A stretch of DNA of 64,000 bases from Bacillota bacterium (lineage in GTDB: Bacteria; Bacillota; SHA-98; Ch115; JABLXJ01), in NCBI GenBank assembly GCA_013178125.1, contig JABLXJ010000009.1, positions 62,001-126,000 of the forward strand, in the 5' to 3' direction. The translations under genes and the position numbers were made by a program. The stretch's first letter is position 1, and every line of letters starts with the position of its first letter. Under the pieces are notes generated by a model that was not told the origin of the DNA, ran no database searches, and worked only from the letters and a program-made list of their open reading frames with translations. Shown in pieces: positions 27,424 through 43,211 of this stretch.

Positions 27424-27702
27424 ATGGCTTTGAAACGAAAGCAAATCTACCTGGATGAAAAGAGCGACGAGCTCCTGAAGAAATGGGCGAACCTCAAAGA
27501 TGTCTCGGAGGCTTCTATTATTCGCGAGGCGGTGAACTCCTATCTTGTAAATCTGGAGCACCAAGATACCCCCAAGGGACCTGATGACCCTCTCATCCAT
27601 ATTGTGGGTATGTATGAAGGCGAAATTCCACCCGATGTGGCCATAAACCACGATAAGTACATCTATCGAAAGAGCCAAGGAAGTGGAGAGATTGATGAAT
27701 GA
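27424..27702 (+). CDS. Ribbon-helix-helix antitoxin (VapB/CopG-like)
   Basis: A 92-aa protein with an N-terminal ribbon-helix-helix pattern (KRKQIYLDEKSDELLKKWA, then VSEASIIREAVNSYLVNLE) that should dimerise on DNA, and an acidic C-terminus that would wrap the toxin. The ATG at 27424 is preferred over a GTG nine bases earlier, because GAGGTG is then the ribosome site. The stop codon overlaps the toxin start (ATGA), typical of toxin-antitoxin operons. Confidence 0.8.
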   Translation: MALKRKQIYLDEKSDELLKKWANLKDVSEASIIREAVNSYLVNLEHQDTPKGPDDPLIHIVGMYEGEIPPDVAINHDKYIYRKSQGSGEIDE

Positions 27703-28145
27703 TGGTCTTCGTTGATACCTCAGCATGGGTTTCCCTGATTGCTAAGAAAGATCCATATCATGAGGAGGTCGCCCGCAAATGGAGTGAGTTGTTGGAGCAT
27801 AATGCGGGGCTCGTAACCTCCAGCGATGTTTGCTCCGAAACCCTCACGCACCTCCGCTACAATGCAGGACACAGTGTAGCGTTATCATTTTACCGTTCTC
27901 TCAAATCCGCTCAGGCCCAAAACCGGATACTGATCGATTGGGTGAGCCCCGCTATATTCGAGAAGGCCTGGAATCTATTCCAGCGCTACGATGACCAAGT
28001 TTTCTCTATGGTAGACTGTACAAGCTTTATAATCTGCAAGAAAAGGCGCATCAAAACAGCGCTTACTCTGGACAAGCATTTCATTATTATGGGCTTCGAG
28101 GCAATCCCAAATCCAGGTAGTAACATGCGGTCTTCTCGCCTGTGA
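27699..28145 (+). CDS. PIN-domain ribonuclease toxin (VapC-like)
   Basis: A 148-aa PIN-domain protein. The acidic active-site set expected for VapC is visible: D6 (VFVDTSAW), E47 (CSETLTHLR), D106 (VDCTSF) and D125 (TLDKHF). VapC toxins cleave tRNA or rRNA. The first of two adjacent ATG codons overlaps the antitoxin stop. The pair lies in a locally AT-rich patch, which suggests acquisition. Confidence 0.85.
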   Translation: MMVFVDTSAWVSLIAKKDPYHEEVARKWSELLEHNAGLVTSSDVCSETLTHLRYNAGHSVALSFYRSLKSAQAQNRILIDWVSPAIFEKAWNLFQRYDDQVFSMVDCTSFIICKKRRIKTALTLDKHFIIMGFEAIPNPGSNMRSSRL

Positions 28146-28527: not shown

Positions 28528-29577
28528 ATGGCCACCATGAAAGATGTAGCAAAAAGAGCCGGGGTCTCGGTATCCACGGTCTCACATGTCCTCAGCGAGA
28601 CGAAGTACGTAAGCCCCAGACTCCGGGAGAGCGTCCTCAAGGCGATGCGCGAATTGAACTACCAGCGCAATCAGATCGCGAGAAGCCTGAAGCGCAACCG
28701 TTCGGAGGTTATAGGGCTCATAGTTCCCGACCTGACCACCCCGTTCTTCACATCCATAGTGGACGGGGCCGAGAGGGTCGTGGACGCTAATAGTTACAGC
28801 CTGATCTTGGGGAACTCGAGGGGGCTCCACGCAAAGGAGCTCCAGTACCTGACGGTGTTCGCCGAGCGATGCGTGGAAGGCCTGCTGGTGACATCATGCG
28901 GCGGCATCACCTCCAACCGTGTTATAGAGCTCAGGTCGTCCGGGATCCCGGTGGTGCTCATCGACCAGTTCCTTCCCGACTGCGAGGCGGATTCGGTGCT
29001 GACAGATAGCAGGGAGGCGATCATCAAGGGGATAGGTTACCTGGCGGCGCTCGGGCACCGGCGGATCGCGACGATCTCAGGGCCTGTGGAGCGGGGCTTT
29101 TTCACATCGAAAGAACGGCTCGAAGCCTACCTGGAGGGCTTGAGGAGGTATGGGCTGGAGGAGGACTCGAATCTGATCCTAAACGGCGGGTTCTCGAAGC
29201 CCGGCGGCAAACGCGCCATGAAGCAGTTGATCGGGTCAGATAACCTGCCTACTGCTGTGTTCATTGCCAATGGCCTCATGACCATAGGGGCTATCGAGGC
29301 CCTCGAAGAGGCCGGCCTCTCTGTCCCCGGGGATATCTCCATCCTGGGTTTCGATGATATACACGACTGGTTCCCCGGGATGAGGACATCGATAACGACA
29401 TTTCGCCAGCCTTCGTTTGAGATGGGCGCCCAGGCCGCCGACCTGCTCTTTCGCAGGATTCGCGGGGAGAGCAAGGACGCGCCGCCAAGGTCGGTAAGGC
29501 TGCCCGTCAAGTTCATCGTGCGCGATTCGTGCGCCCCGCCCCGGGAGAGGACCCTCGAGGTCAGGGCCGGCACTTGA
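28528..29577 (+). CDS. LacI/GalR-family transcriptional regulator
   Basis: A 349-aa repressor with an N-terminal HTH (MATMKDVAKRAGVSVSTVSHVLSET), the hinge helix segment RNQIARSLKRNRSEVIG, and a periplasmic-binding-protein-like sensor domain (about 62-335) with FDDIHDWFPGMRTSITT near the end. The ligand is likely a sugar or glycoside, judged by the glycosidase and importer genes that follow on the same strand. The ATG at 28528 follows ACGGAGCGCC. Confidence 0.93.
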   Translation: MATMKDVAKRAGVSVSTVSHVLSETKYVSPRLRESVLKAMRELNYQRNQIARSLKRNRSEVIGLIVPDLTTPFFTSIVDGAERVVDANSYSLILGNSRGLHAKELQYLTVFAERCVEGLLVTSCGGITSNRVIELRSSGIPVVLIDQFLPDCEADSVLTDSREAIIKGIGYLAALGHRRIATISGPVERGFFTSKERLEAYLEGLRRYGLEEDSNLILNGGFSKPGGKRAMKQLIGSDNLPTAVFIANGLMTIGAIEALEEAGLSVPGDISILGFDDIHDWFPGMRTSITTFRQPSFEMGAQAADLLFRRIRGESKDAPPRSVRLPVKFIVRDSCAPPRERTLEVRAGT

Positions 29578-29798
29578 GTCAAAGTCGTGAGGTGAGATTC
29601 ACGCCTGAGCCAAGGCCGAAAGATAGGCACTTGGCATCCGGATCAAGGTCGCGAGGTGAGCGGTTGGATCAAGATAACAAAGTGAGCGCTTGAGATTCGG
29701 GGCCCGGCGCCCTAAAAGGGATCATGCCCGGCGGCTAAACGGGGTCAAATCACGAGATTAGATCACGAGATCAGATCATAAGGCGAGGAGAATACAGA

Positions 29799-31805
29799 AT
29801 GATTCCACAAGCCAGCATAAATAAGACTTTGCCGTATCGCACTATCCATCTGGATTTTCACACCTCCCCTGAAATCACGCCAATTGCCGGGGATTTCGAC
29901 CCGGCGGATTTTGTCGAGACGCTGCGCTCGGCGCACGCCAATTCCATCACCTGCTTTGCCCGCTGCCACCACGGCATGTGCTATTACCCCAGCAAGGTGG
30001 CGCCCGTGCACCCGGGCCTGAGCCGTGACCTACTGGGCGAGATGATCGAGGCGTGCCACAGCGCGGGAATGAGAATCCCGGTTTATACCACGGTAGTGTG
30101 GGATGAGTATTCAGCCGCCAACCATGCGGACTGGCTCCAGGTGGACGAGGAAGGCAAGCTGGTCGGGCGCCCTCCGTTTGGCAACGGGTATTCACAGTGG
30201 CGCTACCTCTGCATGAATAGCCCCTACGTCGATTACCTCGCCGCCCATGTGGAGGAGTTGGTGAGGGCCTACGACATCGATGGGCTGTTCTTCGATATAA
30301 CATTCCAGCACACGCCTGGCTGCGTGTGCAACCATTGCATGGCGAGCATGAGGAAACTGGGACTGGACCCGGAAAGCGAGGCCGACCGCCGGAAGCACAC
30401 CCTCATCGTCGAGCGCAATCTTATGAAGCGCATGACCGACCTGGTGTGGGACATCAAGCCGGGGATTGATATATTCTTCAATGGACGCCTGCGCCTCACC
30501 CCCCAGGTCCAGAACGGAATACGTCCCGAGGCCGGTTACTTCAGCCACTTTGAAATCGAATCGCTCCCATCGGGCCAGTGGGGCTACGACCACTTCCCGA
30601 TGTATGCCAGATACTACAAGAACCTCGGGAAGGAGATCCTCGGTCACACAGGCCGTTTCCACAAGTCCTGGGGGGACTTCGGCGGCCTGAAAAACAGGGC
30701 GGCGCTGGAGTATGAGTGCTTTAGAATGCTCGCGCTTGGCGCGAAGTGCTGCATCGGCGACCAGCTGCACCCGGGCGGCCGGCTGGATGCCGCCGCGTAT
30801 GAGAGGATAGGCCAGGTTTACGCATCGGTCGAGAAGAAAGAGCCATGGTGCAGGGACTCTGTCCCCCTGGCCGAGGTAGGCGTCCTGATAAGCGAGTCGA
30901 CCAGGTCCAACGAGGGCGCCCTGCGGGTGCTCCAGGAGTGCCACTACCAGTTCGACTTCATCGACGAGGAGAGCGACCTGGGGAAATACCGGGTCATCGT
31001 AGCGCCGGATAGGGTGTCATTCTCGGAGGGATTGGCCGGCAAGCTGAGGGACTATCTCAGCAGGGGCGGCGCGATGCTCCTTAGCTACAAGTCGGGTCTC
31101 GATGAGGAGAGGTCCGCCTTCGTCCTCCCGGAGATGGGCGTGAGTTACCTGGGGGATGCCCCATATTCACCCGATTTCATCCGGGTCGACAAGGCTAAGG
31201 CGCCAATCGCGCGCGGGATCGAGGATATGGACCACGTGATGTACGAGCGCGGGCTCGAGGTGAGGCCCGGGGCTGGCACAGAGACCCTGGCCCGGGTGGC
31301 GCACCCGTACTTCAACCGGACGTATGAACACTTTTGCTCTCACATGTATTCGCCCGTCGCCAAACTCACCGATATCCCGGCGGCGACGCGAAGCGGCAAT
31401 GTTATCTATATCGCGAGCCCGATCTTTGCGGCCTATAGAAAACACGGCAACCTCGTATACAAGCGGATCGTGGAAAACTGCTTGAGGCTGCTCTTGCCCT
31501 CGAAGATGGTGGAAAGCAACCTGCCTTCCACCGCGGAAGTGATGCTCCACAGACAGGGCGACCGCGCCGTGCTCCACATCCTTAATTACATTCCTCAGCG
31601 GCGCGCCGAGTCAATAGACCTCCTGGAGGACGTGATTCCCCTCCACGATGTGAAACTGGAGGTGAGGCTCTGGTTCGAGCCCAGGAGGGTTTATACCGCC
31701 CCGGCCTTGACGGACCTGGAGTTTGAGGCTGCGGGAAACAGCGGAAACAGCATCTCCGTGACGGTCCCAGTGGTCGAGGGGCACCAGATGGTGATCTTCG
31801 AGTAG
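29799..31805 (+). CDS. GHL6-type glycoside hydrolase with beta-galactosidase trimerisation domain
   Basis: A 668-aa enzyme. The N-terminal barrel (about 10-330) resembles the hypothetical glycosyl hydrolase 6 family: YRTIHLDFHTSPEITPIAGDFD, ANSITCFARCHHGMCYYP, IDGLFFDITFQHTPGCVCNHC and HFEIESLPSGQWGYDHFP. A beta-galactosidase-trimerisation-like domain follows (about 340-560, IDEESDLGKYRVIVAPD), then a C-terminal beta domain. Proteins with this build include alpha-L-fucosidase-like enzymes (I recall GH151), but the substrate is not settled by sequence. No signal peptide, so it should act on imported oligosaccharides. It lies between the regulator and the ABC importer. Confidence 0.75.
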   Translation: MIPQASINKTLPYRTIHLDFHTSPEITPIAGDFDPADFVETLRSAHANSITCFARCHHGMCYYPSKVAPVHPGLSRDLLGEMIEACHSAGMRIPVYTTVVWDEYSAANHADWLQVDEEGKLVGRPPFGNGYSQWRYLCMNSPYVDYLAAHVEELVRAYDIDGLFFDITFQHTPGCVCNHCMASMRKLGLDPESEADRRKHTLIVERNLMKRMTDLVWDIKPGIDIFFNGRLRLTPQVQNGIRPEAGYFSHFEIESLPSGQWGYDHFPMYARYYKNLGKEILGHTGRFHKSWGDFGGLKNRAALEYECFRMLALGAKCCIGDQLHPGGRLDAAAYERIGQVYASVEKKEPWCRDSVPLAEVGVLISESTRSNEGALRVLQECHYQFDFIDEESDLGKYRVIVAPDRVSFSEGLAGKLRDYLSRGGAMLLSYKSGLDEERSAFVLPEMGVSYLGDAPYSPDFIRVDKAKAPIARGIEDMDHVMYERGLEVRPGAGTETLARVAHPYFNRTYEHFCSHMYSPVAKLTDIPAATRSGNVIYIASPIFAAYRKHGNLVYKRIVENCLRLLLPSKMVESNLPSTAEVMLHRQGDRAVLHILNYIPQRRAESIDLLEDVIPLHDVKLEVRLWFEPRRVYTAPALTDLEFEAAGNSGNSISVTVPVVEGHQMVIFE

Positions 31806-32110
31806 CCAGATGATCCGGTCGAGAAATACGGGATATATGAGTTTAATTTAGGAGATGGGTAGGAGATAGAGTTCTATGATATCAAGTATCAAGCACCCCG
31901 ACCAGGTATGGACCCACCGGGACGAACAACACACCAGTCTGAATCAAGAAACTGAGAGGGGGGATACGAGCGGGAGGCTGATTTATCTCAACTTTAATGC
32001 GGGCTGAATAGTTGTGTAATTTCCTGTAGTTTCCTAAAAAATGATTTCTTCATAATGGAATGGCCTAAAAAGAGAAGAGACAGAAACAAAATCATTAGGA
32101 GGGAAAACCG
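31806..32110. other. Intergenic region before the ABC importer
   Basis: A 305-base gap where base composition changes from GC-rich to AT-rich. It contains one possible 43-codon frame at 31876-32007 (start MISSIKHPDQVW) with GGAG ten bases upstream, but no recognisable similarity and no strong case for a gene. The importer ribosome site is AGGAGGG. A weak TTGTGT-N17-TAAAAA pair near 32,010 could be its promoter. Confidence 0.5.
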
Positions 32111-33433
32111 ATGACCAGGAAAGGTATATTTGTATGGCTATTTGTTGTGCTGATAATAGGCTTAATGTCCAGCAGCGCAGCGTTGGCGGGGAAGGTCTCC
32201 ATTAGAATTACAGCTATCCCTGGTCCTACAGCAAAAGCTATAGAGGCAAACGCCCAACTGTTTATGAAGAAGAATCCAGATATTAATGTGGTAGTTGACA
32301 TAGCGGGAGGCGCGGAAGAAGTTTATAAGCCCAATTTCCCTGTCATTGCTGCCTCTCCGGATCGCCCTGACATGGCTTGGTACTGGGTCGACGGCAGGCA
32401 ATACCAGGACATGGTGAAAGCCGGCCTGTTGGAACCCTTGGATGACCTGTATGCGAAGGAAGGCTGGTTCAAGAGCCTGCCGGAATCCACTATAAAGAAA
32501 TATACGAGCCCTGATGGACATCTATATGCCGTTAACCAGGACATCGTCTGGTATCCTCAGGTTTACTATAATAAAAAGATCTTTAAGAATCTAGGTATTC
32601 AATCCCCGGCGACCCCTTATATGGCCTATGCATCACTAAATGAATGGTATGCAGTAATAAACAAAATAAGAGGCGCTGGCTACCAGCCGGTAAGCTATGG
32701 AGGCAAAGAGGGGTGGATCATCGGCCATACACATGATGCCTTGCTCCAGAGGATGATCCCTCAAGATTTGCTAAATGATCTATATGAGAACTGGAGATCG
32801 GGGTCGAAGCCAAAGGTCAGATACACCGATGAAGTATGGACACAGGTTGACAGGATGCTCCTTGAGTGGGCGAAGAAAGGCGTGTTTGCCGACGGATTTA
32901 TGGGGCGCAGCTACCCTGAAGGCCGTATGCTTTTTGTCCAGGGCAAGGCAGCAATGTATCAAGATGGTTCCTGGGCTGTGGGGATACTACGTAATGAGGC
33001 CCCGAATCTTGACTTTGGATGGATGCTCTATCCGAAGATAAAGAAGGAAATCGATCCTAAGTTCCTCCTTTATGCTGGAAACGGCATAATGATTCTTAAA
33101 GGGACGAAGCACCTTGATGCGTGCAAGAGATTCCTCGCCTTCATTCTCAGTAAAGAGGGCCAAGAGAATATGATGAAAAACGCCCAGCTGATCCCCAGCA
33201 GGATGGATGTCGACCCGAACGTTATCAAGAAGATGGCGGACCCGCTGGTCTACGAGATGTGGCTCAAGCTCCGTTCAATTGGCACTTCAACGGGTTGGGA
33301 CGATCCCGTACCTGCGGAACCTGCTGAAAGGAGTTTCATACTGTTCCAGGAGTTGCTTACCGGCACCCGGACCCCTGAGTCAGTGGGGAAGGAATTAGAG
33401 GATATTGTAGAAAAACTTAGGACGAAGAAGTAG
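32111..33433 (+). CDS. Sugar ABC transporter substrate-binding protein
   Basis: A 440-aa extracellular solute-binding protein of the carbohydrate family 1 type, with YSPDGHLYAVNQDIVWYPQVYYNKKIFKNLGI-like core segments and WKI-type C-terminal lobe (LFVQGKAAMYQDGSWAVGIL). It delivers a sugar or oligosaccharide to the two permeases downstream. The N-terminus is a type I signal peptide ending SSSAALA before GKV; no lipobox cysteine is present, unusual for a Gram-positive binding protein. The coding sequence is AT-richer than the flanking glycosidase gene. Confidence 0.9.
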   Translation: MTRKGIFVWLFVVLIIGLMSSSAALAGKVSIRITAIPGPTAKAIEANAQLFMKKNPDINVVVDIAGGAEEVYKPNFPVIAASPDRPDMAWYWVDGRQYQDMVKAGLLEPLDDLYAKEGWFKSLPESTIKKYTSPDGHLYAVNQDIVWYPQVYYNKKIFKNLGIQSPATPYMAYASLNEWYAVINKIRGAGYQPVSYGGKEGWIIGHTHDALLQRMIPQDLLNDLYENWRSGSKPKVRYTDEVWTQVDRMLLEWAKKGVFADGFMGRSYPEGRMLFVQGKAAMYQDGSWAVGILRNEAPNLDFGWMLYPKIKKEIDPKFLLYAGNGIMILKGTKHLDACKRFLAFILSKEGQENMMKNAQLIPSRMDVDPNVIKKMADPLVYEMWLKLRSIGTSTGWDDPVPAEPAERSFILFQELLTGTRTPESVGKELEDIVEKLRTKK

Positions 33434-33441
33434 TATAAAGA

Positions 33442-33487
33442 GGCCTCCCCACCACGAACCCTTCCTGGGAGAGATAGTGGGGAGGCC
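33442..33487 (+). terminator. Stem-loop between binding protein and permease genes
   Basis: A perfect 11-bp inverted repeat (GGCCTCCCCAC at 33442-33452 and its complement at 33477-33487) begins eight bases after the binding-protein stop. No long T-run follows, so it more likely stabilises the upstream message or partly attenuates, giving more binding protein than permease. Confidence 0.6.
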
Positions 33488-33553
33488 CCTATTGATCTGT
33501 CCATATCGGTGCATGCTACTCTGACATTCTTCCAGGATGGAGGCATTACTTCT

Positions 33554-34465
33554 ATGAATGCTCCTAACCGTGCTTCAAACCGTTCTCTCTTTCTCAGTCG
33601 GGGGATAATTACCCCTTATCTATTTGTGGCCCCTGCCTTCTTGTTGATTATAGTTTTCATATTTTATCCTGTAATAGAAAGCTTCGCCCTCAGTCTTTAT
33701 AATTGGACGGGCATCAGCAAGAAAACCTTTGTCGGATTCGATAATTTTAGAGAGCTTTTGAGAGATCAGGTGTTTTGGCTGGCGATCAAAAACAACCTGG
33801 CTTTTACCCTGCTTACCACCGCCGGGACGGTGTTCCTCGGCTTCTTTCTCGCGGTTGCCATAGAAAGACGGTTGCGGGGATGGCAGTTCTACAAGATTGT
33901 CTATTTCCTCCCGGTTATGATGTCCACGACCGTGGTAGGGCTCCTATGCGGCCGTATCCTTGATCCAACATTGGGATCGGTTAATCTACTCCTAAAGGGA
34001 CTGGGAATTTCATCTCCCCCATTTTGGTTGGGCAACCCTAAAATAGTGTTGCTTTCTATAATCGCAATTACTATATGGCAATATGCCGGTTTCCCAATGA
34101 TCGTCCTTCTTGCCGCCATGGAGAACATCCTCCAGGAGATACACGAGGCAGCTACTATCGATGGAGTCAACAACTGGCAAAGAATTTGGTACGTGACCTT
34201 CCCCCTCATAAGGCCGGTGTTTTTCATGATTACCATTCTACAGGTCATCTTCTCTTTCAAGGTATTTGATATCGTCTGGGCTATGACCCAGGGTGGGCCG
34301 GGGGATTCATCAATCGTGCTTGGCGTTTACCTCTATAAAACCGCTTTTAGATATACCAAATTTGGTTATGGCTCAACAATAGCCCTGGCGATGCTCATGA
34401 TTATCGTGCCGCTTTCGCTCCTCTACTTGAGGATCACCAGGCTGGAGACCGTAGAAATCGAGTAA
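33554..34465 (+). CDS. Sugar ABC transporter permease (MalF-like)
   Basis: A 303-aa inner-membrane protein with about six membrane helices, starting at the ATG at 33554 behind GGAGG. The EAA loop that contacts the ATPase is visible as EAATIDGVNNWQRIWYVTFPLI. It pairs with the downstream permease. No ATPase gene lies nearby, so a shared MsmX/UgpC-type ATPase encoded elsewhere is likely. Confidence 0.92.
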   Translation: MNAPNRASNRSLFLSRGIITPYLFVAPAFLLIIVFIFYPVIESFALSLYNWTGISKKTFVGFDNFRELLRDQVFWLAIKNNLAFTLLTTAGTVFLGFFLAVAIERRLRGWQFYKIVYFLPVMMSTTVVGLLCGRILDPTLGSVNLLLKGLGISSPPFWLGNPKIVLLSIIAITIWQYAGFPMIVLLAAMENILQEIHEAATIDGVNNWQRIWYVTFPLIRPVFFMITILQVIFSFKVFDIVWAMTQGGPGDSSIVLGVYLYKTAFRYTKFGYGSTIALAMLMIIVPLSLLYLRITRLETVEIE

Positions 34466-34480
34466 TGGGGGGATGATGAG

Positions 34481-35335
34481 TTGATAAGTCACAGGCAGGC
34501 CGTGAACAGGAGGATATCTTATTCGTTGATTTATATCCTGCTGGCGTTTTGGGCCGTTTTGGAATTATACCCTATTCTATTCTTGTTCATAACTTCCATG
34601 AAGACCGACGCCGAGATAATAGGGAATATATTGGGGATTCCGCGGGCCCCAACCTTCAGGAATTTTGTTGTAGCATGGAGAGGTGGGAGCCTGAGCGTTC
34701 CCATCAGTAGATATTTCTTAAATAGCATAATAGTAACAGGGGGAACGCTGGGACTCTTGACCATTACAGGGGCGATGGCCTCTTACGGTCTTGTAAGGTA
34801 TAGCTTCCCCGGGAGGTCCCTCCTAGAGCGGCTTACAATATTTGCCCTGGCAATTCCGATACATGCTACCCTCATCCCAGTATTCAACTTCCTGGGAGAC
34901 ATGCATCTCAGGAATAATTATCTGGGCCTCATTTTGGTCTACACTGCTTTCTGGCTGCCATTTACGGTCCTTCTATTATACTCTTATTTCGTCTCCTTCC
35001 CGCGAGAGTTGGAAGAGGCGGCAAAAATCGATGGGCTCTCCGACTGGGGTGTTTTCTGGAAGATCGTCTTACCAATATCCAAAGGAGCATTAAGCAGCGT
35101 CTCTATAGTGAATTTCGTTGGGATATGGAGCGAATTGCTCTTCGGATTCTTGATAATGAATAGAGAACAGATGAAGACCATTACAGTTGGCGTCCTTTCC
35201 TTCCGGGGGCAATACGAGGTGGAATGGGGCATTATGTTTGCGACAATGGCTATCGCCGTTCTCCCCACGCTTTTGTTCTTCATCATTTTTCAAAAACGGA
35301 TTACAAAGGGCATGCTTCTCGGTATCTATAAATAA
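34481..35335 (+). CDS. Sugar ABC transporter permease (MalG-like)
   Basis: A 284-aa membrane protein of the MalG/UgpE type with the EAA motif EAAKIDGLSDWGVFWKIVLPI and the family C-terminus (FFIIFQKRITKGMLLGIYK). The start is a TTG at 34481 behind GGGGGATGATGAG; an overlapping ATG would stop immediately. It lies 15 bases after the MalF-like gene and completes the importer. Confidence 0.92.
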   Translation: MISHRQAVNRRISYSLIYILLAFWAVLELYPILFLFITSMKTDAEIIGNILGIPRAPTFRNFVVAWRGGSLSVPISRYFLNSIIVTGGTLGLLTITGAMASYGLVRYSFPGRSLLERLTIFALAIPIHATLIPVFNFLGDMHLRNNYLGLILVYTAFWLPFTVLLLYSYFVSFPRELEEAAKIDGLSDWGVFWKIVLPISKGALSSVSIVNFVGIWSELLFGFLIMNREQMKTITVGVLSFRGQYEVEWGIMFATMAIAVLPTLLFFIIFQKRITKGMLLGIYK

Positions 35336-35353
35336 CCAAGGTCGCCAACATCT

Positions 35354-35398
35354 TGGCCCAGAGGCCCCTATCAGCCACCATAGTGGGCCACCTTTTTT
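35354..35398 (+). terminator. Probable terminator after the importer operon
   Basis: TGGCCC (35354-35359) pairs with GGGCCA (35385-35390), followed by CC and a run of six T. The loop is long (25 bases), so strength is uncertain. It separates the importer from the first URO-D gene. Confidence 0.5.
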
Positions 35399-35500
35399 CG
35401 AACTGGCCCCACCTGATAAGGGGTACTGGCGGGAGGGAAAAAGATCAAGCCCTGTGTCAGGCCACGCACGGGTATAAGGCGGGAAGGAGGAAGAGAAACT

Positions 35501-36571
35501 ATGAAGCCTAAAGAGCGAGTCATGCGCATCTTAAACCACCAGGAAGCTGATCGTGTACCTATTGATTTCTGGGCTGCGGACGAAGTGTGGGACGAACTCA
35601 TGAGCCACCTGCGGGTCTCCAATAGAGAGGATCTCTTACGGGAATTGCACGTGGATTTCCGCTTCCCTTCTGCTTGTTTCAGCGATCTCATGCCGGCACA
35701 GACTTATCCGGACGGTAGTTTTGAAGACTCGTGGGGAGTGAGGAGAAAAGGCCCTTTTGGCGGTATCCCAATAGAGCACCCACTGGCGGGGGCAATATCT
35801 GTGGAAGATATTGAGAAATACAGCTGGCCAAACCCGGATAATATTGATTATGATGGATTTGTCCGGGAATGCGAACAGTATAGCGACTATGCTATTTACG
35901 GCGGTGCTTGGAGCCCCTTCTTCTATGTGGCATGTGAACTAATGGGTATGGATAATCTATTTGTGAATATGGTAGAGGCGCCAGAGGTGGTACATGCTCT
36001 TCTGGACAAGACTTGTGGTTTTTACCTGGAGGTCTCCCGGCGGATGTTTGAAAAAGCCAGGAATAAAATGGATATATTTTTTATGGGGGAAGATTTCGGC
36101 ACACAAAACGGACTAATCATGAGCAGGGATATGTGGAGGATATTCATTGCTCCCCGGCTAAAAAGCCTCTTCGAGCAGGCAAAATTATACGGTTATAAAG
36201 TGATGCTACATTCCTGTGGAAGTGTCCGCGACCTGATCCCGGATCTTATAGAAATGGGGCTGGATGGTTTGGATCCCATCCAGGTGCGGGCACGGGGAAT
36301 GAATATCGAGGAGCTAAAACAAGAGTATGGATCGGTGCTAACCTTTAGAGGCTCCATAGATACCCAACAAACCTTACCTTACGGGACGCCCGAGGATGTG
36401 AAGCGAGAAGTTATCGACCGGATATGCAAAATTGCCCCGGGCGGGGGGTTTATTTTAAACTCGAGCCAGAACCTCTTGCCTGAGATCCCCCTTGAAAACA
36501 TTATCACCATGTACCGGACGGCATATGAATACGGGCATTACGATAGTTTAGGGCAGCGAAAAACGGCCTGA
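35501..36571 (+). CDS. URO-D/MtaA-superfamily protein 1
   Basis: A 356-aa (beta/alpha)8 protein of the uroporphyrinogen decarboxylase superfamily (MKPKERVMRILNHQEADRVPIDFW start). The Arg-rich substrate site of HemE is absent, so it is not a heme enzyme. H237-S-C239 (VMLHSCGSV) matches the zinc His-x-Cys of methylcobamide methyltransferases, but the C-terminal cysteine is replaced (LNSSQNLLPEIPLEN). Related proteins move methyl groups between corrinoids and CoM or folate; many linked to sugar importers are uncharacterised. No corrinoid protein lies in the window. AT-rich like the importer genes; AAGGAGG ribosome site. Confidence 0.8.
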   Translation: MKPKERVMRILNHQEADRVPIDFWAADEVWDELMSHLRVSNREDLLRELHVDFRFPSACFSDLMPAQTYPDGSFEDSWGVRRKGPFGGIPIEHPLAGAISVEDIEKYSWPNPDNIDYDGFVRECEQYSDYAIYGGAWSPFFYVACELMGMDNLFVNMVEAPEVVHALLDKTCGFYLEVSRRMFEKARNKMDIFFMGEDFGTQNGLIMSRDMWRIFIAPRLKSLFEQAKLYGYKVMLHSCGSVRDLIPDLIEMGLDGLDPIQVRARGMNIEELKQEYGSVLTFRGSIDTQQTLPYGTPEDVKREVIDRICKIAPGGGFILNSSQNLLPEIPLENIITMYRTAYEYGHYDSLGQRKTA

Positions 36572-36635
36572 AGGCAGGTAACCAAGGGAATGACGCTGGG
36601 GGCGCTCAAATGACGCCATGACGGTGGAGGTATCA

Positions 36636-37904
36636 ATGCCGGTGGTGGTATCAAAAGTAATATCGAAAAAGGATAAGCAAATCCTGAGAGAGCTTGTCGA
36701 GAAGGTGGCGGAGATAGCGGCCCTGCCCGTTCAGCAGGAGAAGGCCGGGATGTGGAAGCGGCTCAACGGGCTTGAAAGGGTCAAGCCCATGATCTGGATC
36801 AACGAGATCCCGTGGCATGAGATGGATGTAAATGGCGAACTGGAGCTCAAGACCGAGGATGAGTTTTGCCGCATGCTGGAGACGGGGCTCCGACAGACGA
36901 TCTACCAGTGGGAGCATATGAGGGGAGATATGGTCGTGGAGCCGAAGATCTACTGCCCCCTCGTCATCTATGATACCGGTTTCGGGATCTCCGAGGATGT
37001 GGATATTGTAAGGACCGACGAGAAGAGTTCCATCATCTCGCGGCATTTTCACCCTCAAATACAAGAAGAAAAGGATATCGAGAAGATAAAGATGCCCGAG
37101 GTCGTCTATGATGCGGAGGCGACCGAACACAATTACCAGCAGATGGTTGATATCTTCGATGGCATCCTCACGGTGGAGAAACGGGGCGTGCCCGGTTTCT
37201 GGTTTGCGCCGTGGGATGAGTTGATCCGGTGGTGGGGGGTCCAGGAGGCCATGATGGACCTCGTATTGCGCCCGGAACTGGTCCACAAGGCTATGGACCG
37301 GCTGGTAGAGGCCTACCTTCGCCGCTTGGACCAGTATGAGGAACTGAACCTCCTGTCACTGAACAACAACAATACCCGCATAGGCTCCGGCGGCTACGGT
37401 TATACAGACGAGTTACCCCAGCCCGGCCATGACCCGGCCCACATCAAAGCGGCCGACCTGTGGGGGTGCGCTGCAGCCCAGATATTCTCCGAGGTTTCCC
37501 CGGAGATGCATGAGGAGTTTGCCCTCAAGTATGAGATCCGGTGGTTGAAGAGGTTTGGACTGAACTATTACGGCTGTTGTGAGCCGCTCCATAAGAAGAT
37601 AGGTATACTCAAGCAGATACCGAATTTAAGAAAGATATCCATGAGCCCCTGGGTGAATGTAGAAGAAGGAGCTGCCAACATAGGGAACAAGTATGTGTTT
37701 TCATATAAACCCAGCCCTGCAATCTTTGCGGCGGATGCGTGGGATCTCGAGGCGGCCCGCGCACAGCTGGTGAGCGCCCTGGAAAAGACAAGAGGCTGCG
37801 TGGTGGAGGTTATTATGAAGGATATCAGCACAGTCCGCTACCAGCCGCAGCGCCTGTGGGAATGGACCGAGATGGCCGCTCAGGTGACGGAGGATTTTGC
37901 TTAG
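36636..37904 (+). CDS. URO-D-superfamily protein 2, divergent and longer
   Basis: A 422-aa protein starting at the ATG at 36636 behind GGAGG (an earlier in-frame ATG lacks a ribosome site). An N-terminal extension of about 45 residues is helical. The barrel contains WFAPWDELIRWWGVQEAMMDLVLRPELV and NYYGCCEPLHKKI (C314-C315) where MtaA-type enzymes have their His-x-Cys, so the zinc site is altered. The C-terminus has SYKPSPAIFA and RGCVVEVIMKDISTVRYQP. I assign only superfamily. It is GC-rich, unlike URO-D 1, and lies 64 bases after it. Confidence 0.7.
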   Translation: MPVVVSKVISKKDKQILRELVEKVAEIAALPVQQEKAGMWKRLNGLERVKPMIWINEIPWHEMDVNGELELKTEDEFCRMLETGLRQTIYQWEHMRGDMVVEPKIYCPLVIYDTGFGISEDVDIVRTDEKSSIISRHFHPQIQEEKDIEKIKMPEVVYDAEATEHNYQQMVDIFDGILTVEKRGVPGFWFAPWDELIRWWGVQEAMMDLVLRPELVHKAMDRLVEAYLRRLDQYEELNLLSLNNNNTRIGSGGYGYTDELPQPGHDPAHIKAADLWGCAAAQIFSEVSPEMHEEFALKYEIRWLKRFGLNYYGCCEPLHKKIGILKQIPNLRKISMSPWVNVEEGAANIGNKYVFSYKPSPAIFAADAWDLEAARAQLVSALEKTRGCVVEVIMKDISTVRYQPQRLWEWTEMAAQVTEDFA

Positions 37905-37945
37905 AGGCGCGCCTGCCCAGCAAACATGAGAAAGGGGGAACAGCT

Positions 37946-38992
37946 ATGAGCTATGAGAGAGGGCTCAAAGCCCTGAACCTCGAGATGACCGAGAAAATAC
38001 CTCACACCGAGTACCTGGATCATCCCGGATATGTCCGGCTCAAGACGGGGTTTGACCTGAACCCGGATGACCCGGACGAATTCCGGCTCGCCAACGCCGC
38101 GATTGCAAAGGTCATGGATTACGACCTTTTCTGGAATATATTTGAACGTCCAATCACCCGGGGTCGCATTACGAAAATGGGAAGGGCCTACTTTCACGAG
38201 AACCAGGGCCCGGACTACGAGGTTTACTGCCCCTTCAAGACCGTTGAGGACGTTCTGAATTTCGACCCCGTGGCCGAATACGGGATCCCGGACGTGGATA
38301 TCACTGCTAAGATATTCCAGCAACACTATGTGGAAAACCAGGCGCTCTACGATTCCATGGTCTACACGGGCGGGCGGTACCACACGCTATTCAGCGCCTG
38401 CATACGGACCTTTGGATGGGAGATGTTTCTCGCCGGCGCCGGGGCGGAGTATGAGCGCTTTGACAGGGTGTTGGAGGGGTTTTACGAAATCTCCATGGCC
38501 GAGGTGAAGGCGTGGGCGAAGACGGGCATCAAGGCATATATCTGCCATGATGACATCGTATGGAGCTCCGGCCCTGTCTTCCACCCCGACTGGTACCGGA
38601 AGTACATCTTCCCAAGGTACAAAAAGTTATGGGCCCCGCTGAAGGAAGCCGGGATCAAGGTGCTTTATTGCTCCGACGGCAACTTCGACGCATTCGTGGA
38701 CGACATCGCCGGGGCGGGGGCCGATGGCTTCATCTTTGAACCCATCACCTCCCTGGAGCGTATCGCGGAGAAATACCGCAAGTCGAAGGTAATGGTGGGC
38801 AATATTGACTGCCGGATACTCACCAGCGGCACCAAGGAGGAGATCAGGGCTGAGGTGAAGCGCTGCGCTGATATAGGCAGGGACTGCCCCGGGTATTTCT
38901 TCGCTGTGGGCAATCACATCCCCGCTAATGTACCCATCGAGAATATAGAGATCTACCTCGATGCGCTCGACGAATTCGGAAGACGGTCTTAA
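37946..38992 (+). CDS. URO-D-superfamily protein 3
   Basis: A 348-aa URO-D-like protein starting at the ATG at 37946 behind AAGGGGG; the longer upstream frame is non-homologous. The barrel pattern is clear (AYICHDDIVWSSGPVFHPDWYRKYIFPRYKKLW, GADGFIFEPITSLERIAEKY). The zinc His-x-Cys position reads Tyr241-Cys-Ser, and the C-terminal Cys region reads AVGNHIPANVPIEN, so both metal ligands are lost. Thus it probably does not bind zinc in the MtaA manner. It lies 41 bases after URO-D 2. Confidence 0.78.
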   Translation: MSYERGLKALNLEMTEKIPHTEYLDHPGYVRLKTGFDLNPDDPDEFRLANAAIAKVMDYDLFWNIFERPITRGRITKMGRAYFHENQGPDYEVYCPFKTVEDVLNFDPVAEYGIPDVDITAKIFQQHYVENQALYDSMVYTGGRYHTLFSACIRTFGWEMFLAGAGAEYERFDRVLEGFYEISMAEVKAWAKTGIKAYICHDDIVWSSGPVFHPDWYRKYIFPRYKKLWAPLKEAGIKVLYCSDGNFDAFVDDIAGAGADGFIFEPITSLERIAEKYRKSKVMVGNIDCRILTSGTKEEIRAEVKRCADIGRDCPGYFFAVGNHIPANVPIENIEIYLDALDEFGRRS

Positions 38993-39110
38993 ATTGGGTA
39001 AGTTTTAGCATAATTTAGCATAAGTCCTGGGGTTACTCGGGTAAGGGCTGAGTTCAGGTTCCCCGCTGACAGACTGCCGCAAAGCGATGGACCCACATTT
39101 CGGTATCAGG

Positions 39111-39119
39111 TGGTATAAT
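39111..39119 (+). promoter_or_regulatory. Extended -10 promoter upstream of URO-D 4
   Basis: TGGTATAAT is a perfect -10 hexamer with the upstream TG of extended -10 promoters. It lies about 30 bases before the start of a truncated 50-codon frame that is coupled to URO-D 4. No good -35 hexamer is present, as expected for this promoter class. Confidence 0.55.
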
Positions 39120-39147
39120 AGGCATATAAAGTAAAGGGGGAGAATTC

Positions 39148-39300
39148 ATGTCCGCCCTGATTGAGACTAAAGCAGTGGTCCTTTTTCAAGGGGATAGCAT
39201 TACAGATACTGGCCGCAACCGGGAAAATGATGATCTGGGCCAGGGGTATGCGATGTGTTCAAGTTGGTCGAAAACAGACAGAAAGAGGGTGTTTCGATGA
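39148..39300 (+). pseudogene. Truncated SGNH/GDSL hydrolase start, coupled to URO-D 4
   Basis: A 50-codon frame beginning MSALIETKAVVLFQGDSI at 39148 behind AAGGGGG. It contains block I of SGNH hydrolases (LFQGDSITDTGRNRENDD, then LGQGYAM), after which similarity stops abruptly and an unrelated Lys/Arg tail ends in TGA. A full SGNH hydrolase is about 200 residues, so this is a decayed or fused remnant. Its stop overlaps the URO-D 4 start as ATGA, so it may now serve as a translated leader. The promoter upstream appears intact. Below the length of most ORF lists. Confidence 0.7.
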
Positions 39301-40304
39301 CCTCCTACGAAAGGCTCATTTCCGCGATCGAGTTCCGGACGGCTGATCGCATTCCAGTGTTCCCGCTGGTAATGCGCTTTGCGGCCAGGTTTGCGGGCAT
39401 GACATACAGGGATTACATGATGAGCGGGGATAAGCTTGCCGAGGCCCAGATCACCTGCCGGGAGAGATTCGGGTATGACGCCGTGACCGTATGTTCGGAT
39501 GCCTACCGGGAATCAGATGCCCTCGGAGCCGTCATTGACTACCCGGAGGAGGATGCGGCCCGGCCGGTGAGGTGTGCGCTGCACTCGAAGGAGGTGCTCG
39601 ACCGCCTCGAGGTGCCTGATCCTTTGAAGGGGCACCGCATGCGGGAGCGGGTGGAGGCGGTACGCCAGTTGAAGAAGCATTATGGCGGGAAGGTTCCATC
39701 TTTCGGGTGGGTTGAGGCACCCTTCTCGGGCGCTGCATATATGCGGGGCGTGGAGCAGTTCTTGATCGACCTCTACGAAGACCCCGGTTTCGCCACAAAA
39801 GCCATCGAGTTTGCATATGAAACCGAGCTCCGCTTTGCCCTGGCCCAGGTCGATGCGGGGGCCGACATGATCGGGGCTGGAGACGCTGCGGCTTCCCTGT
39901 TATCCCCGCCACTCTACGAGAGATATGCCCTCCCCTATGCGGCGAGAATGTTCCGGGAGCTGAAATCAAGGGGCGTCCACATCAAGTACCATATCTGCGG
40001 GGATACCAACCACCTCCTGCGAGCGATGGCCCGCCTGGGTGCAGATATCATCAACCTGGACTTCATGGTGGACCTGAAGGCGGCAAGGGAGGCGTTTGGC
40101 CCTTCGACGGCCATAAAGGGCAACGTAAACCCGGTCATGGTCGAGAGCCTCTCCCCGTCGGAGTTGATATCGAGATTGCAGGAATGCGCCGGGCAAGCCG
40201 GCCGGCTGGGGTATATCATCAGCCCTGGCTGTGAGGTTACCCCCGATACCCCTTATGAAAATATGGATGCTATGATTGAGACTGCGTTTAAGATCCAATA
40301 TTAG
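39297..40304 (+). CDS. URO-D/MtaA-superfamily protein 4 with complete zinc site
   Basis: A 335-aa protein starting at the ATG at 39297 inside the stop of the upstream remnant. It keeps the complete metal set of methylcobamide:CoM-type methyltransferases: H232 and C234 (YHICGDTNHLL) plus C312 (ISPGCEVTPDTPYEN). The N-terminus reads ADRIPVFPLVMRFAARFAG. It is the best candidate for a real methyl-transfer enzyme among the four paralogues. The methyl acceptor and the corrinoid partner are unknown; a folate-linked role is more likely than CoM in a non-methanogen. Confidence 0.82.
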   Translation: MTSYERLISAIEFRTADRIPVFPLVMRFAARFAGMTYRDYMMSGDKLAEAQITCRERFGYDAVTVCSDAYRESDALGAVIDYPEEDAARPVRCALHSKEVLDRLEVPDPLKGHRMRERVEAVRQLKKHYGGKVPSFGWVEAPFSGAAYMRGVEQFLIDLYEDPGFATKAIEFAYETELRFALAQVDAGADMIGAGDAAASLLSPPLYERYALPYAARMFRELKSRGVHIKYHICGDTNHLLRAMARLGADIINLDFMVDLKAAREAFGPSTAIKGNVNPVMVESLSPSELISRLQECAGQAGRLGYIISPGCEVTPDTPYENMDAMIETAFKIQY

Positions 40305-40412
40305 CCAGCATTGAGTCCAGCATCGAGTTGATGCGTATGAGACGTTTGATTTTCCAGACCGGGCATAACTTGCTCTAACTCTAAGCACATAAAGCAGACA
40401 TAGTCGAAGACA

Positions 40413-40607
40413 TTGTTCCCCTCCATCCTCACCGACCTCTTCAACCGTATAGGGGTCGATGTCAGCTTCGGGGGCTATGGCTTGAAGCAGGAACAGGTCG
40501 AGGATTTCTGTGAGCTAGTTTATAACAGCTTCCAGCTGGACTTAAAAGGCCATCCAAAACCAGTATCTAAGAAGGACCTTGTGGAGATCATGGAGAAATG
40601 TATGTGA
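40413..40607 (+). pseudogene. C-terminal fragment resembling iron-containing alcohol dehydrogenase
   Basis: A 64-codon frame with a TTG as first possible start and no ribosome site. The sequence LFNRIGVDVSFGGYGLKQ, then QLDLKGHPKPVSKKDLVEIMEKC has the helix layout and the N/H-P-(K/R)-P-V-x-K-x-D-L-x-E-I ending of Fe-ADH C-termini. Nothing upstream resembles the rest of the enzyme, so it is called a remnant. It could instead be a small unrelated protein. Confidence 0.45.
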
Positions 40608-40937
40608 AGTGGTAGCGTAGATGTAACGTAGATATTAGCAACTCAGACATCAGTAGTTCAGAAACAGAATAAGCGCTACCAGGTTATGGTTCTCCAGGTT
40701 TGTTATGATCAATAGTAATAGTCCGGACGGTTATAGCGTGATTGGCCTATACCATATGAGAAAGAGAAAACCATGCGGGAGACTGGATAGACATCGGGAT
40801 CTCCAGCTGCAAGCTGGCCGCCCTTCCTGTTGGTCGGGTTAAATTATGACCCGGTCCCCAGCCAGCCGAGCCCTGTCAGACTTCTACCGGATCCCCAACC
40901 AAACCCGATCAAAATTCAGTCAGTAGTATATCCGAAT
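40608..40937. other. Gene-free stretch containing the left repeat array
   Basis: This 330-base stretch lies between the Fe-ADH-like fragment and the stop codon of the nuclease-like gene. No gene is seen. The first 220 bases are loosely repetitive AT-rich sequence (GTAGATGTAACGTAGATATTAGC). The last 90 are the left repeat array at 40836-40925. Confidence 0.6.
40836..40925 (+). repeat. Left array of a ~33-bp repeat (3 units)
   Basis: Three degenerate copies of the unit ACCCGGTCAAAATTTAGCCC (core) begin near 40836, 40873 and 40906; the last two cores are exactly 33 bases apart. The same unit forms a six-copy array on the other side of the nuclease-like gene, in the same orientation. The first copy is near-palindromic (GGGTTAAATTATGACCC). 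Confidence 0.65.
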
Positions 40938-41642
40938 CTATCTCATACATCCTCTTCCAACCTCCTCCAACAGCTTCGCGATTTCGCTCTCAGGATCGAC
41001 CGGGTCGACAGGTAATTCCGGAGGAATTTTGGATATCATCTTCTTCAACGTCAAATCATCCCTAGTAACTACGATGACTTTGATATTCTTCTCCATACTT
41101 AAACCGAGTTTAATTAAATCCCTCTTCCTCCTCTCCTTGAAAGCCTGTTTATCGGGATACATCTCGGTCGGCCCGTAATGCTGGTCTCCGTTGAACTCGA
41201 AAGCCACACCCGCGAGGTAGTACCTATCATATTCGAGGGGCTGACCCGTATCCGGATTTCGCAGGAACTGAGGACGAGCATTATCTATGTAGTTGTCGTC
41301 GGGAATCAGGAAATCTAAGAACCGCTTCATGACCGTTTCCGCTCTATGGCCTGACATATCCAGGTTGTGCTTGATCCGCATAATATAGGCCTTCTCAACT
41401 TCTTTGGGCATGGTCGGGATGATTGCACTCCGGCCGGATTGCCTGATGGTTTTTACCCAGCCTGCTTGTTCCAATTCTCGATAATACCGCCGTATGGCGC
41501 ATCTGGATTTTTTGGTAAGCCTAACGAGTTCGCCTAATGAGCGAGGACGGGCTATAGAGATAACTACATATACATATTTTGCCTGGAGGGATAGGTCCTC
41601 CTGAAAAAAGAGTTCAGGTGGGATATAGGGGCTTCTTATCAA
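40938..41642 (-). CDS. Winged-helix protein with EDxHD/PD-(D/E)XK-like nuclease domain
   Basis: A 234-aa protein. The N-terminus (about 15-75) is a winged-helix/MarR-like DNA-binding region (SLGELVRLTKKSRCAIRRYYRELEQAG). The C-terminal half has LEYDRYY, then AFEFNGDQHYGPTE, then RRKRDLIKLGL and IKVIVVTRDDL. This order (D, E-[FY]-x-G-[ED]-Q-H-[YF], K/R-x-D, and a hydrophobic strand) is that of Vsr/homing-type EDxHD nucleases of the PD-(D/E)XK superfamily. The function is unknown. The gene stands alone, AT-richer than the flanks, with 33-bp repeat arrays both upstream and downstream. A role in mobility, homing or self-regulation is inference. Confidence 0.6.
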   Translation of the reverse strand: MIRSPYIPPELFFQEDLSLQAKYVYVVISIARPRSLGELVRLTKKSRCAIRRYYRELEQAGWVKTIRQSGRSAIIPTMPKEVEKAYIMRIKHNLDMSGHRAETVMKRFLDFLIPDDNYIDNARPQFLRNPDTGQPLEYDRYYLAGVAFEFNGDQHYGPTEMYPDKQAFKERRKRDLIKLGLSMEKNIKVIVVTRDDLTLKKMISKIPPELPVDPVDPESEIAKLLEEVGRGCMR

Positions 41643-42087
41643 TTTCCTATACCTCCGTTATTTGGTATCTTATCATGATTTGGGAGCGAGTCTATCTATT
41701 TCAATCCATATTTTACCATATACATCATAAAATTTGCAACTAAATACTGGGTATAAATCAGTTTTTTGTTAAATTCAGTTATTAGTCGCATGATCGCTCA
41801 TAAGAACTAACACAGTCAAAATTTAGACGGGTCTAACAACGAACCCGGCCTAATTTTAGCCATGTCTGGCGATGAAGCCGGTCAAAATCGAGACCGGTAC
41901 CCGGTCAAAATTAAGCCCGGGCTTCCCCCGAAGCTGGTCAGAATTTAACCGGGTTTCCCAGCCAACCCGGTCAAGATTTAGCCGGATCCGGTACCAAATC
42001 CGGCACCAGGAGCATCCTCATATTGTAATTTAATTGGGTAATTTAAGATAATTCTGCGAAATTCGAGATTGGAAGCATAGAAATCAG
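41643..42087. other. Gene-free stretch containing the right repeat array
   Basis: A 445-base gap between divergently arranged neighbours: it is upstream of the nuclease-like gene and downstream of the DUF1638 gene. The first 170 bases are AT-rich and should hold the nuclease promoter. The six-unit array follows at 41812-42000. No gene is seen. Confidence 0.65.
41812..42000 (+). repeat. Right array of a 33-bp tandem repeat (6 units)
   Basis: Cores GTCAAAATT (with variants) begin at 41815, 41848, 41881, 41904, 41937 and 41970. The spacings are 33, 33, 23, 33 and 33 bases. One unit has lost 10 bases, so all six cores stay in helical phase. The unit consensus is close to ACCCGGTCAAAATTTAGCC followed by CGGGTTTCCCAGCGA, with near-dyad symmetry in the CCGGTCAAAATTTAGCCGG core. 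It lies upstream of the nuclease-like gene. It is not a CRISPR because there are no unique spacers. Confidence 0.8.
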
Positions 42088-42888
42088 TCAATCCGAATTA
42101 TCACCCCTCGTTTCCTCGATTCCTTCTGCATCCTCTGCGCAGATAATAGAATCATCAAAACTGGCGCAAACTGTCTTGCCCGGGTGGACGACCAGCACCT
42201 TATCCTCATTAAATTCCCCGTTAAGGAGTTTCTCGAGCAGCACCCGGTCCCCCGGGAGTTCGTCATAGTGCCACCCGAGAAACTCCGCGCATTCCCTGGT
42301 ATATCTCCTGTAAAAATCCGACCGCGGGAAGCCCCAGTCTATATAGGTCGCGTAGTTGTATTCCTTGAACCAGCCCTGCTCCATTTGCATAAGATAATCG
42401 GCGTTATCCTTGCCGTACATCTCCACGTACCTGTCGTATATCCTCCTGTACCTCTCCTCCCCCGGCTGGAGGGTCCTCTCGATCCAGCCCGCCGAGTACC
42501 AGTAAACCCCCCGGTGGGAGTCGAAATATTCCTTGTATCTCTCCTTTGACCCCAGCAGCAATGTAATACAATCGTGCGCCCTCGGGATCACAATGGGAAT
42601 CTTCTCGCTGGTAAGGCCAACTATGCCGTTACTGCACAGGCCATACCCGAGGACAATGAAGTCGTATCCAAACAGATTGAAATCCTTCATGCTGGCCTTT
42701 TCCAGGTAGTTAAGCTTATAACCTCTATTGGCTGCGTCAATCTCATCCTGCAGCGCCCTTCTCAATTTGTCGGGCTCATTGTGAAGCCCCTGGGGCAGGA
42801 ATCTGACATCCACGAAATGCCTCGATTGGCTGCTCAGCATGGAAATCTCACGGTTGAGCACGTCACAGGCTATGACCTTTATGTGCAT
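42088..42888 (-). CDS. DUF1638-family protein
   Basis: A 266-aa protein starting at the ATG at 42888 behind GGGGGT (the longer frame upstream has no similarity). It carries the DUF1638 signatures VLGYGLCSNGIVGL and IPRAHDCITLLLGSKERYKEYF, with conserved Cys and His that could bind metal. Function is unknown; as far as I recall such genes often sit near corrinoid methyltransferase clusters, which would fit the nearby URO-D proteins. It is transcribed towards them from the opposite strand. Confidence 0.8.
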   Translation of the reverse strand: MHIKVIACDVLNREISMLSSQSRHFVDVRFLPQGLHNEPDKLRRALQDEIDAANRGYKLNYLEKASMKDFNLFGYDFIVLGYGLCSNGIVGLTSEKIPIVIPRAHDCITLLLGSKERYKEYFDSHRGVYWYSAGWIERTLQPGEERYRRIYDRYVEMYGKDNADYLMQMEQGWFKEYNYATYIDWGFPRSDFYRRYTRECAEFLGWHYDELPGDRVLLEKLLNGEFNEDKVLVVHPGKTVCASFDDSIICAEDAEGIEETRGDNSD

Positions 42889-43211
42889 CACAATTACCCC
42901 CTGCTCCCTTCGTTGGGGCCGCGCGCCTCTCACGCGCCCGCTTTGTTCCATGACACTATCGCTCGCTGGCCGGGGGCGGGATAGAGTGAACCGCCCCATA
43001 CATATCACGTAGCATACATATCATGTGGCAAAATACTCCGCGTGGGAGGTAAGCAAGTAGGCCTGCTCGCTCACCTCCTCCAGAATACCTTGCGAAGCAC
43101 GCACACCCAGCCAATACCTGGTAGTGTATGGCAGCAGTACAGTGGCATATGGTGGTATATCGTGGTACATGGTAGTATTATGCTATGTGTGCAGCAAGCA
43201 ATTTGGCACCA
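42889..43211. other. Intergenic region between DUF1638 and Zn-ADH genes
   Basis: A 323-base gap with no gene. Bases 43,125-43,195 are a run of near-repeats of GTGGCATATGGTGGTATATCGTGGTACATGGTAG, another example of the short-word intergenic sequence of this genome. Both flanking genes are on the minus strand. Confidence 0.55.

Follow-up and report, generated by a model that had tools for sequence, protein, structure and literature searches.

URO-D superfamily genes behind a sugar importer in an acetogen-type Bacillota bacterium: a putative corrinoid-dependent route for methylated sugars

Why should a sugar uptake operon carry four members of the uroporphyrinogen decarboxylase (URO-D) superfamily and no corrinoid protein? 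The question is raised by a 64,000-nucleotide stretch of contig JABLXJ010000009.1 (positions 62,001 to 126,000; here, the window) from an uncultured, acetogen-type Bacillota bacterium (GCA_013178125.1; genome G000). The four genes lie on the forward strand between 35501 and 40304 and are here called U1 (35501-36571), U2 (36618-37904, with its ATG at 36618 or 36636), U3 (37946-38992), and U4 (39297-40304). A first-pass annotation of this DNA had proposed a pathway for a methylated or otherwise decorated sugar, in which several of the barrels had taken roles other than methyl transfer. The first part of that proposal stands, as a decorated, possibly methylated sugar is still the best substrate class, but the second is not supported. 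The U1 to U4 families recur with fucose genes across phyla and elsewhere with a corrinoid protein, which makes the removal of methyl groups from imported sugars probable. We regard it as an evenly balanced proposal that these proteins are corrinoid-dependent methyltransferases that strip methyls from O-methylated sugars after import, with methylated fucose the probable substrate of U2.

Corrinoid partners and the fucose link

The window does lack a corrinoid protein and an MtaB-like partner, as the annotation said, but for the corrinoid protein this does not hold genome-wide (no search for an MtaB homolog was made in G000). The corrinoid protein, MT2, and activating enzyme, none of which is in the window, are each encoded elsewhere in G000. 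Its sole stand-alone corrinoid protein (C11:75167) has a B12-binding_2 domain with a DLHDIG motif and follows, on the same strand, genes for a substrate-binding protein, two permeases, a URO-D, a PfkB, and a radical SAM/ferredoxin protein (L035:5844-13788). Downstream of it there is a caspase-domain (Peptidase_C14) protein (L035:14587-15699). A methyltransferase (MeTr) is paired with RACo, the corrinoid activator, on contig C10, and C16 carries a CODH/acetyl-CoA synthase cluster that includes a methyltransferase of its own and AcsV. An importer/URO-D module lies some 2 kb away from this last cluster (L138:3409-15618; AcsE, AcsD, CooC-like, AcsV, AcsC, AcsB, AcsA). The missing partner had been the ground for assuming non-methyl roles; these factors in trans contradict that step, as does the clustering of relatives of U2, of the U3 clade, and of the nearest kin of U4 with a corrinoid protein and RACo. 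The genome searches rule out the argument that methyl transfer is excluded by the lack of a corrinoid partner.

That clustering is seen in two islands, L160 (genome G130) and L161 (G352), where 11 and 8 URO-D genes, respectively, surround one corrinoid protein (DLHDIG) and one RACo each; with the flanks included (L177 and L180), the totals are 12 and 9. The islands are arguably more striking than the window locus itself. Both contain a U2-profile member (54 to 55% identical to U2) and a member with the complete His-x-Cys...Cys (HCC) metal site that is nearest to U4 (35 to 37%), and L160 also contains a U3-clade member (63% identical to its L049 counterpart). The other island URO-Ds are 47 to 50% identical to URO-Ds of G000, and in several clades of the tree, those of U2 and U3 and the one nearest U4 among them, island members are sister to importer-linked URO-Ds. 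In both genomes, the flanks code for further URO-Ds, homocysteine S-methyltransferases, and HMT-MTHFR fusions, to which G130 adds MTHFR, a pterin-binding methyltransferase, FTHFS, and GH2. The physical argument is at its strongest in these islands and in the L035 operon.

The fucose link is clearest for U2, for which a scan of genome contigs found 136 relatives, 80 of which were kept. The family is conserved across phyla at 51 to 67% identity, practically outside Pfam, and its neighbor clusters include, by Pfam, GH29 alpha-L-fucosidases, L-fucose isomerase, a rhaM-type mutarotase, and MFS permeases (FucP-like by eye), together with Rbs-type importers and other URO-Ds. GH29, GHL6, FucI, or RhaM is found within 6.5 kb of U2 in 35 of 79 loci, compared with none of 20 RACo loci of U2-bearing genomes (p ~5e-5) and 1 of 25 of the URO-D loci of G000 itself (p ~9e-5), so that the recurrent fucosidase, isomerase, and mutarotase linkage of an L-fucose utilization locus is a property of the U2 family. 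The order is GH29-U2-GH29-U3-URO-D-GHL6-FucI in L049 and Rbs-type importer-U1-U2-URO-D-URO-D-RhaM-FucI in L113, while Spirochaete operons such as L097 and L108 have U2, U1, c4- and c8-type URO-Ds, a mutarotase, and an importer, without a corrinoid protein. Some pairs recur: U1 with U2 in 14 loci, U2 with U3 in L047, L049, L120, and island L160, and GHL6 with U2. The GHL6 glycosidase cluster of the window is also near U2 in L049, L115, L119, and L121, the last three being from related genomes and thus not independent.

RACo is present in 49 of 50 U2-bearing genomes. Among 289 genomes from the phylum of genome G047, it was found in 49 of the 52 with a strong U2-profile match versus 57 of the 237 others (odds ratio, 52; Fisher p = 5.5e-22, a value that ignores kinship), and the odds ratio is 44 when only POR-positive genomes are counted. 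POR (PF01558) was tried as a control for anaerobes and turned out to be too common (261/289) to discriminate. Some of the 20 RACo loci of U2-bearing genomes combine a corrinoid protein with MtaB and CobW (Bacteroidia), others a corrinoid protein with URO-D/Trx and CobW (Spirochaetes and Clostridia); a methanol-type MtaB/corrinoid/CobW/RACo operon of U2-bearing Bacteroidia was observed in L140 to L142. The gene for a DUF1638 protein adjoins RACo in L146, L147, L149, L156, L162, and L163. In Phaeobacter, a DUF1638 gene has a fitness pattern of the B12-reactivation type (PMC5764234), and this, together with its recurrence next to RACo, is why the DUF1638 gene beside U1 to U4 (42088-42891, minus strand; PF07796, 3e-44), a candidate corrinoid-reactivation accessory factor, fits the corrinoid reading.

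Fold, active site, and ancestry of the four proteins

All four proteins belong to the URO-D superfamily. U1, U3, and U4 score 86, 85, and 248 bits with the Pfam model, all over the cut-off (PF01208; 3e-24, 6.6e-24, and 1.3e-73), while U2, missed by Pfam (E 0.009), is a divergent member by iterative profile and predicted fold. Set against known folds, the predicted structures of U1 and U2 are HemE/MtbA-type barrels, U1 being nearest to MtbA and U2 remote from both. The U1 model (pLDDT 95.2) ranks MtbA (4ay8/4ay7) at the top of its PDB matches, then URO-D and MetE, and then ketose 3-epimerases. All PDB matches of the U2 model (pLDDT 94.9, from a 77-sequence alignment) at E <= 0.001 are HemE or MtbA, at template modeling (TM) scores of 0.4 to 0.6 and about 12% identity to the solved structures; neither phmmer nor a profile search found a significant PDB relative of U2.

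The active-site residues are largely as the annotation had read them. U4 keeps exactly His232, Cys234, and Cys312 of the zinc site of MtaA and MtbA, and it is the only one of the four to have the full His-x-Cys...Cys. U1 has His237-x-Cys239 with Gln at the distal position (HCQ). U2 and U3 had been described as having neither element, which is accurate only in part for U2, with Gly-Cys-Cys-Glu at the His-x-Cys site and a distal Ser (GCS); C314, C315, and E316 are invariant in the U2 family. U3 has Cys-Ser-Asp and a distal Asn (CDN). None of the four has the HemE arginine site, an observation that holds in the multiple alignment: of the set Arg37/Arg41/Asp86/Tyr164/His339, the Arg positions are unaligned in U1 to U4 and His339 is substituted in all four, although the N-terminal region of U4 carries a HemE-like MRxAxR string. 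The best HemE (TIGR01464) score among them is 108, against a cut-off of 303. U4 reaches 174.7 on TIGR01463 (cut-off, 235.4) and stays well under the MtaA and MtbA equivalog cut-offs, and U1 to U3 score lower on these models or have no match. The commonest metal-site state among the surveyed URO-Ds is His-x-Cys...His (41 of about 90 rows); only 6 are HCC.

The annotation had also seen the metal ligands as lost stepwise among paralogs, and on this point the phylogeny disagrees. In a tree of 87 URO-Ds, U1, U2, U3, and U4 fall in four separate clades, and constraining them to one group is 1403 log units worse (approximately unbiased [AU] test, p = 2.6e-5). The residue states themselves are fixed traits of families found elsewhere. 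Local duplication with stepwise ligand loss is ruled out by the tree and the AU test; the four are old, separate lineages and not local duplicates. The closest kin of U1 are Spirochaete/Clostridia-type proteins, those of U3 are the L049 and L160 members, and that of U4 is another importer-linked URO-D of G000 (46%). U2 and U3 are both under purifying selection (dN/dS, 0.26 and 0.05).

In the nearest relative of the locus, L047, U2 is 97% identical and the segment 38992-42083, which includes U4, is not present. U4 is flanked by likely gene remnants, a GDSL-like N terminus at 39149-39298 (by eye; without Pfam match) and the C terminus of an iron-type alcohol dehydrogenase (Fe-ADH) at ~40413-40607 (E 0.01), which suggests rearrangement around it. 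With the segment missing from L047 and carrying these apparent remnants, it is doubtful that U4 is a core part of the module, and it is probably a later arrival. The same segment contains a 234-amino-acid open reading frame without Pfam match (40938-41642, minus strand). L047 also lacks everything from the LacI gene to the middle of U1, GHL6 and the importer included. At L047:1014-1562, the upstream PIN-domain gene (window 27699-28145) is joined in frame to the 3' half of U1, which could be a real deletion or an assembly chimera.

The module and the importers of the genome

The annotation had placed U1 to U4 behind a LacI regulator, a GHL6-type glycosidase, and an ABC importer, with DUF1638 nearby, and the coordinates and gene order of the 28528-42891 module were verified in the window. 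Importer, fucosidase-like glycosidase, and URO-Ds form one co-directional run on the plus strand, preceded by the LacI-family gene (28528-29577; PF00356, 1e-19; Peripla_BP_3, 7e-33), the likely regulator of the module. The glycosidase (29799-31805) matches GHL6 (PF14871, 1.5e-41) and, weakly, alpha-L-fucosidase (PF01120, 2.7e-10) and the GH42M trimerization domain (PF08532, 9e-10), an architecture that is presumably GH151-like. The CUT1 importer consists of a substrate-binding protein (32111-33433; PF01547, 1.5e-28) and two PF00528 permeases, one UgpA/GlcT-like (33509-34465, start possibly 33554) and one GlcU/UgpE-like (34481-35335, start possibly 34526).

The tie to sugar uptake noticed at this locus is recurrent and conserved, and the neighborhood survey did not show the sugar genes to be unlinked. 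G000 (3.48 Mb) has 37 Pfam URO-D matches and 41 members by iterative profile, against 18 Pfam matches in a congener, 28 and 6 in two genomes of the order, and 0 to 4 in most other relatives. Across 25 URO-D loci and the window, 23 of the 41 members are directly downstream of a CUT1 terminal permease (tandem URO-Ds allowed), and importer genes are at most three genes away for 29. The excess of URO-Ds behind importers is very large, although the chance rate (60 in ~3300 genes) is an estimate. A position right behind a permease is less frequent in other genomes of the order: 17 stretches drawn from three of them gave 22 URO-Ds, of which 4 are so placed. The glycosidases neighboring the G000 URO-Ds are varied (three GH38, GH4, GH36, GH31, GH2, and GH35/42), so that the genome-wide theme is not fucose alone.

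Proposed route, alternatives, and known systems

O-methylated sugars are natural constituents of glycans, and we know of no anaerobic route described for removing such a sugar O-methyl group. A literature search likewise found nothing relevant that connects URO-Ds to sugar operons, to fucose, or to methylated sugars, and no anaerobic sugar O-demethylation route. In the route that we propose, the locus would be a LacI-controlled operon that imports a fucosyl or other deoxy-sugar compound carrying O-methyl groups. U1 to U3 would act as MT1-type methyltransferases, perhaps one per methyl position, and would pass the methyl to Co(I) of the shared corrinoid protein encoded elsewhere (G000 C11:75167), which RACo (C10) and DUF1638 would keep active. 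MeTr, or an HCC-type URO-D such as U4, would hand the methyl to the tetrahydrofolate/acetyl-CoA pathway or to a thiol, and the freed fucose would be isomerized and then degraded. The economical reading, we infer, is that of MT1-type URO-Ds with one corrinoid partner, encoded once and shared. As a target, 2-O-methyl-fucose is already known from the GH139 2-O-methyl-fucosidases, which act on rhamnogalacturonan II (PMC12282258).

Several points weigh against this route. The methylation of the substrate is something that we infer, and the His-x-Cys...Cys site is missing from U2 and U3. No corrinoid protein is in or adjoining the window operon, a single stand-alone one would have to serve 41 URO-Ds, and besides L160 and L161 only one U2 locus, L059, has one, ~7.4 kb off. 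The two islands share gene content and probably represent one evolutionary event. The co-occurrence argument is weakest where lifestyle may confound the link with RACo: the statistic ignores phylogeny, and RACo may mark an anaerobic one-carbon (C1) lifestyle, as the RACo loci of U2-bearing Bacteroidia include MtaB (methanol) and those of Spirochaetes an mlp-like URO-D/Trx. Lastly, the GH38, GH36, GH31, GH2, and GH4 neighbors are not explained by a single methyl-fucose substrate.

Some of these same observations suit the view of the first-pass annotation, in which the barrels (U2 and U3 above all) have given up methyl transfer and transform sugars instead, as an isomerase, epimerase, lyase, or similar enzyme would. 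A corrinoid protein is absent from the surroundings of many importer modules, the Spirochaete operons with four URO-Ds, mutarotase, and importer have no recognized kinase or aldolase, the invariant polar residues of U2 are unlike those of MtaA, and ketose 3-epimerases come next among the U1 model matches after URO-D/MtbA/MetE. The epimerase match may, however, be generic to TIM barrels, and to our knowledge no sugar isomerase or epimerase has been described in the URO-D superfamily. In islands L160 and L161, U2, a U3-clade member, and a U4 relative have a corrinoid protein and RACo in their midst, joined in G130 by methyl-folate enzymes, and RACo accompanies U2 in all but one of the 50 genomes, so we consider this view unlikely, if a serious contender.

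A methyltransferase role could also be directed at small methyl compounds from glycan breakdown (methanol, methyl-thiols, or selenides) and not at methylated sugars. The MtaB and corrinoid protein in RACo loci of U2-bearing Bacteroidia, the URO-D/thioredoxin fusions with an FCC motif in those of Spirochaetes, and the tie of type 1 mlp clusters to methyl-S/Se (Kountz and Balskus, PMC10418091) point that way, but the placement behind sugar importers and glycosidases and the fucosidase/mutarotase/FucI linkage are left unexplained, which makes it improbable. Least to be expected is an ordinary mosaic locus, with unrelated URO-Ds assembled by rearrangement and no common pathway. U4 and its flanking gene fragments are indeed missing from L047, where LacI to mid-U1 is deleted too, but the U1 and U2 (14 loci), U2 and U3, and GHL6 and U2 pairs recur, and purifying selection acts on U2 and U3.

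Returning to sugar demethylation, a broader claim, which we hold rather tentatively, is that there is a large unrecognized class of corrinoid sugar O-demethylases in anaerobes of many phyla, with dozens of URO-D paralogs per genome, each for one imported methylated glycan, and one shared corrinoid protein feeding the folate and acetyl-CoA pathway. If so, many of the proteins annotated as "uroporphyrinogen decarboxylase family" in anaerobes that degrade glycans would connect polysaccharides with C1 metabolism. The U2 family, fucose-tied and conserved across phyla, offers one concrete enzyme for probing sugar demethylation.

Among known systems, MetE and HemE share the barrel fold with U1 and U2, but the HemE Arg/Asp/His set is not aligned in U1 to U3, and U2 is only remotely identical to the solved structures. 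MtaA and MtbA (PF01208, TIGR01463; 4ay7/4ay8) are closer, sharing the URO-D fold, the His-x-Cys...Cys site of U4 (4ay7, E 5.7e-21), and the top PDB matches of the U1 model; they differ in that U4 is under the TIGR01463 cut-off, U1 to U3 have no full site, and the window has a sugar importer context with no adjacent corrinoid protein. The UroD-superfamily aromatic O-demethylases and CdmB (MtvB, OdmB, VdmB, MtoB, and CdmB) combine a UroD-fold MT1 with a corrinoid protein, MT2, and activating enzyme, and CdmB is active without zinc (PMC13222342), so the loss of zinc ligands does not exclude methyl transfer. The window URO-Ds differ from them in their predicted glycan substrates and their partners in trans, and profile A2 matches CdmB (9e-14) only in its C-terminal part, with no full-length phylogenetic link. 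Type 1 mlp gene clusters, linked to methyl-S/Se by Kountz and Balskus (PMC10418091), set Mlp2 and Mlp3 with a corrinoid protein and RACo, both of which the window lacks, and U1 to U3 are not MtaA-like. Islands L160 and L161 are similar in kind to these clusters, but they contain 8 to 11 URO-Ds, most of them outside the MtaA-like clade, with the U2 and (in L160) U3 families among them.

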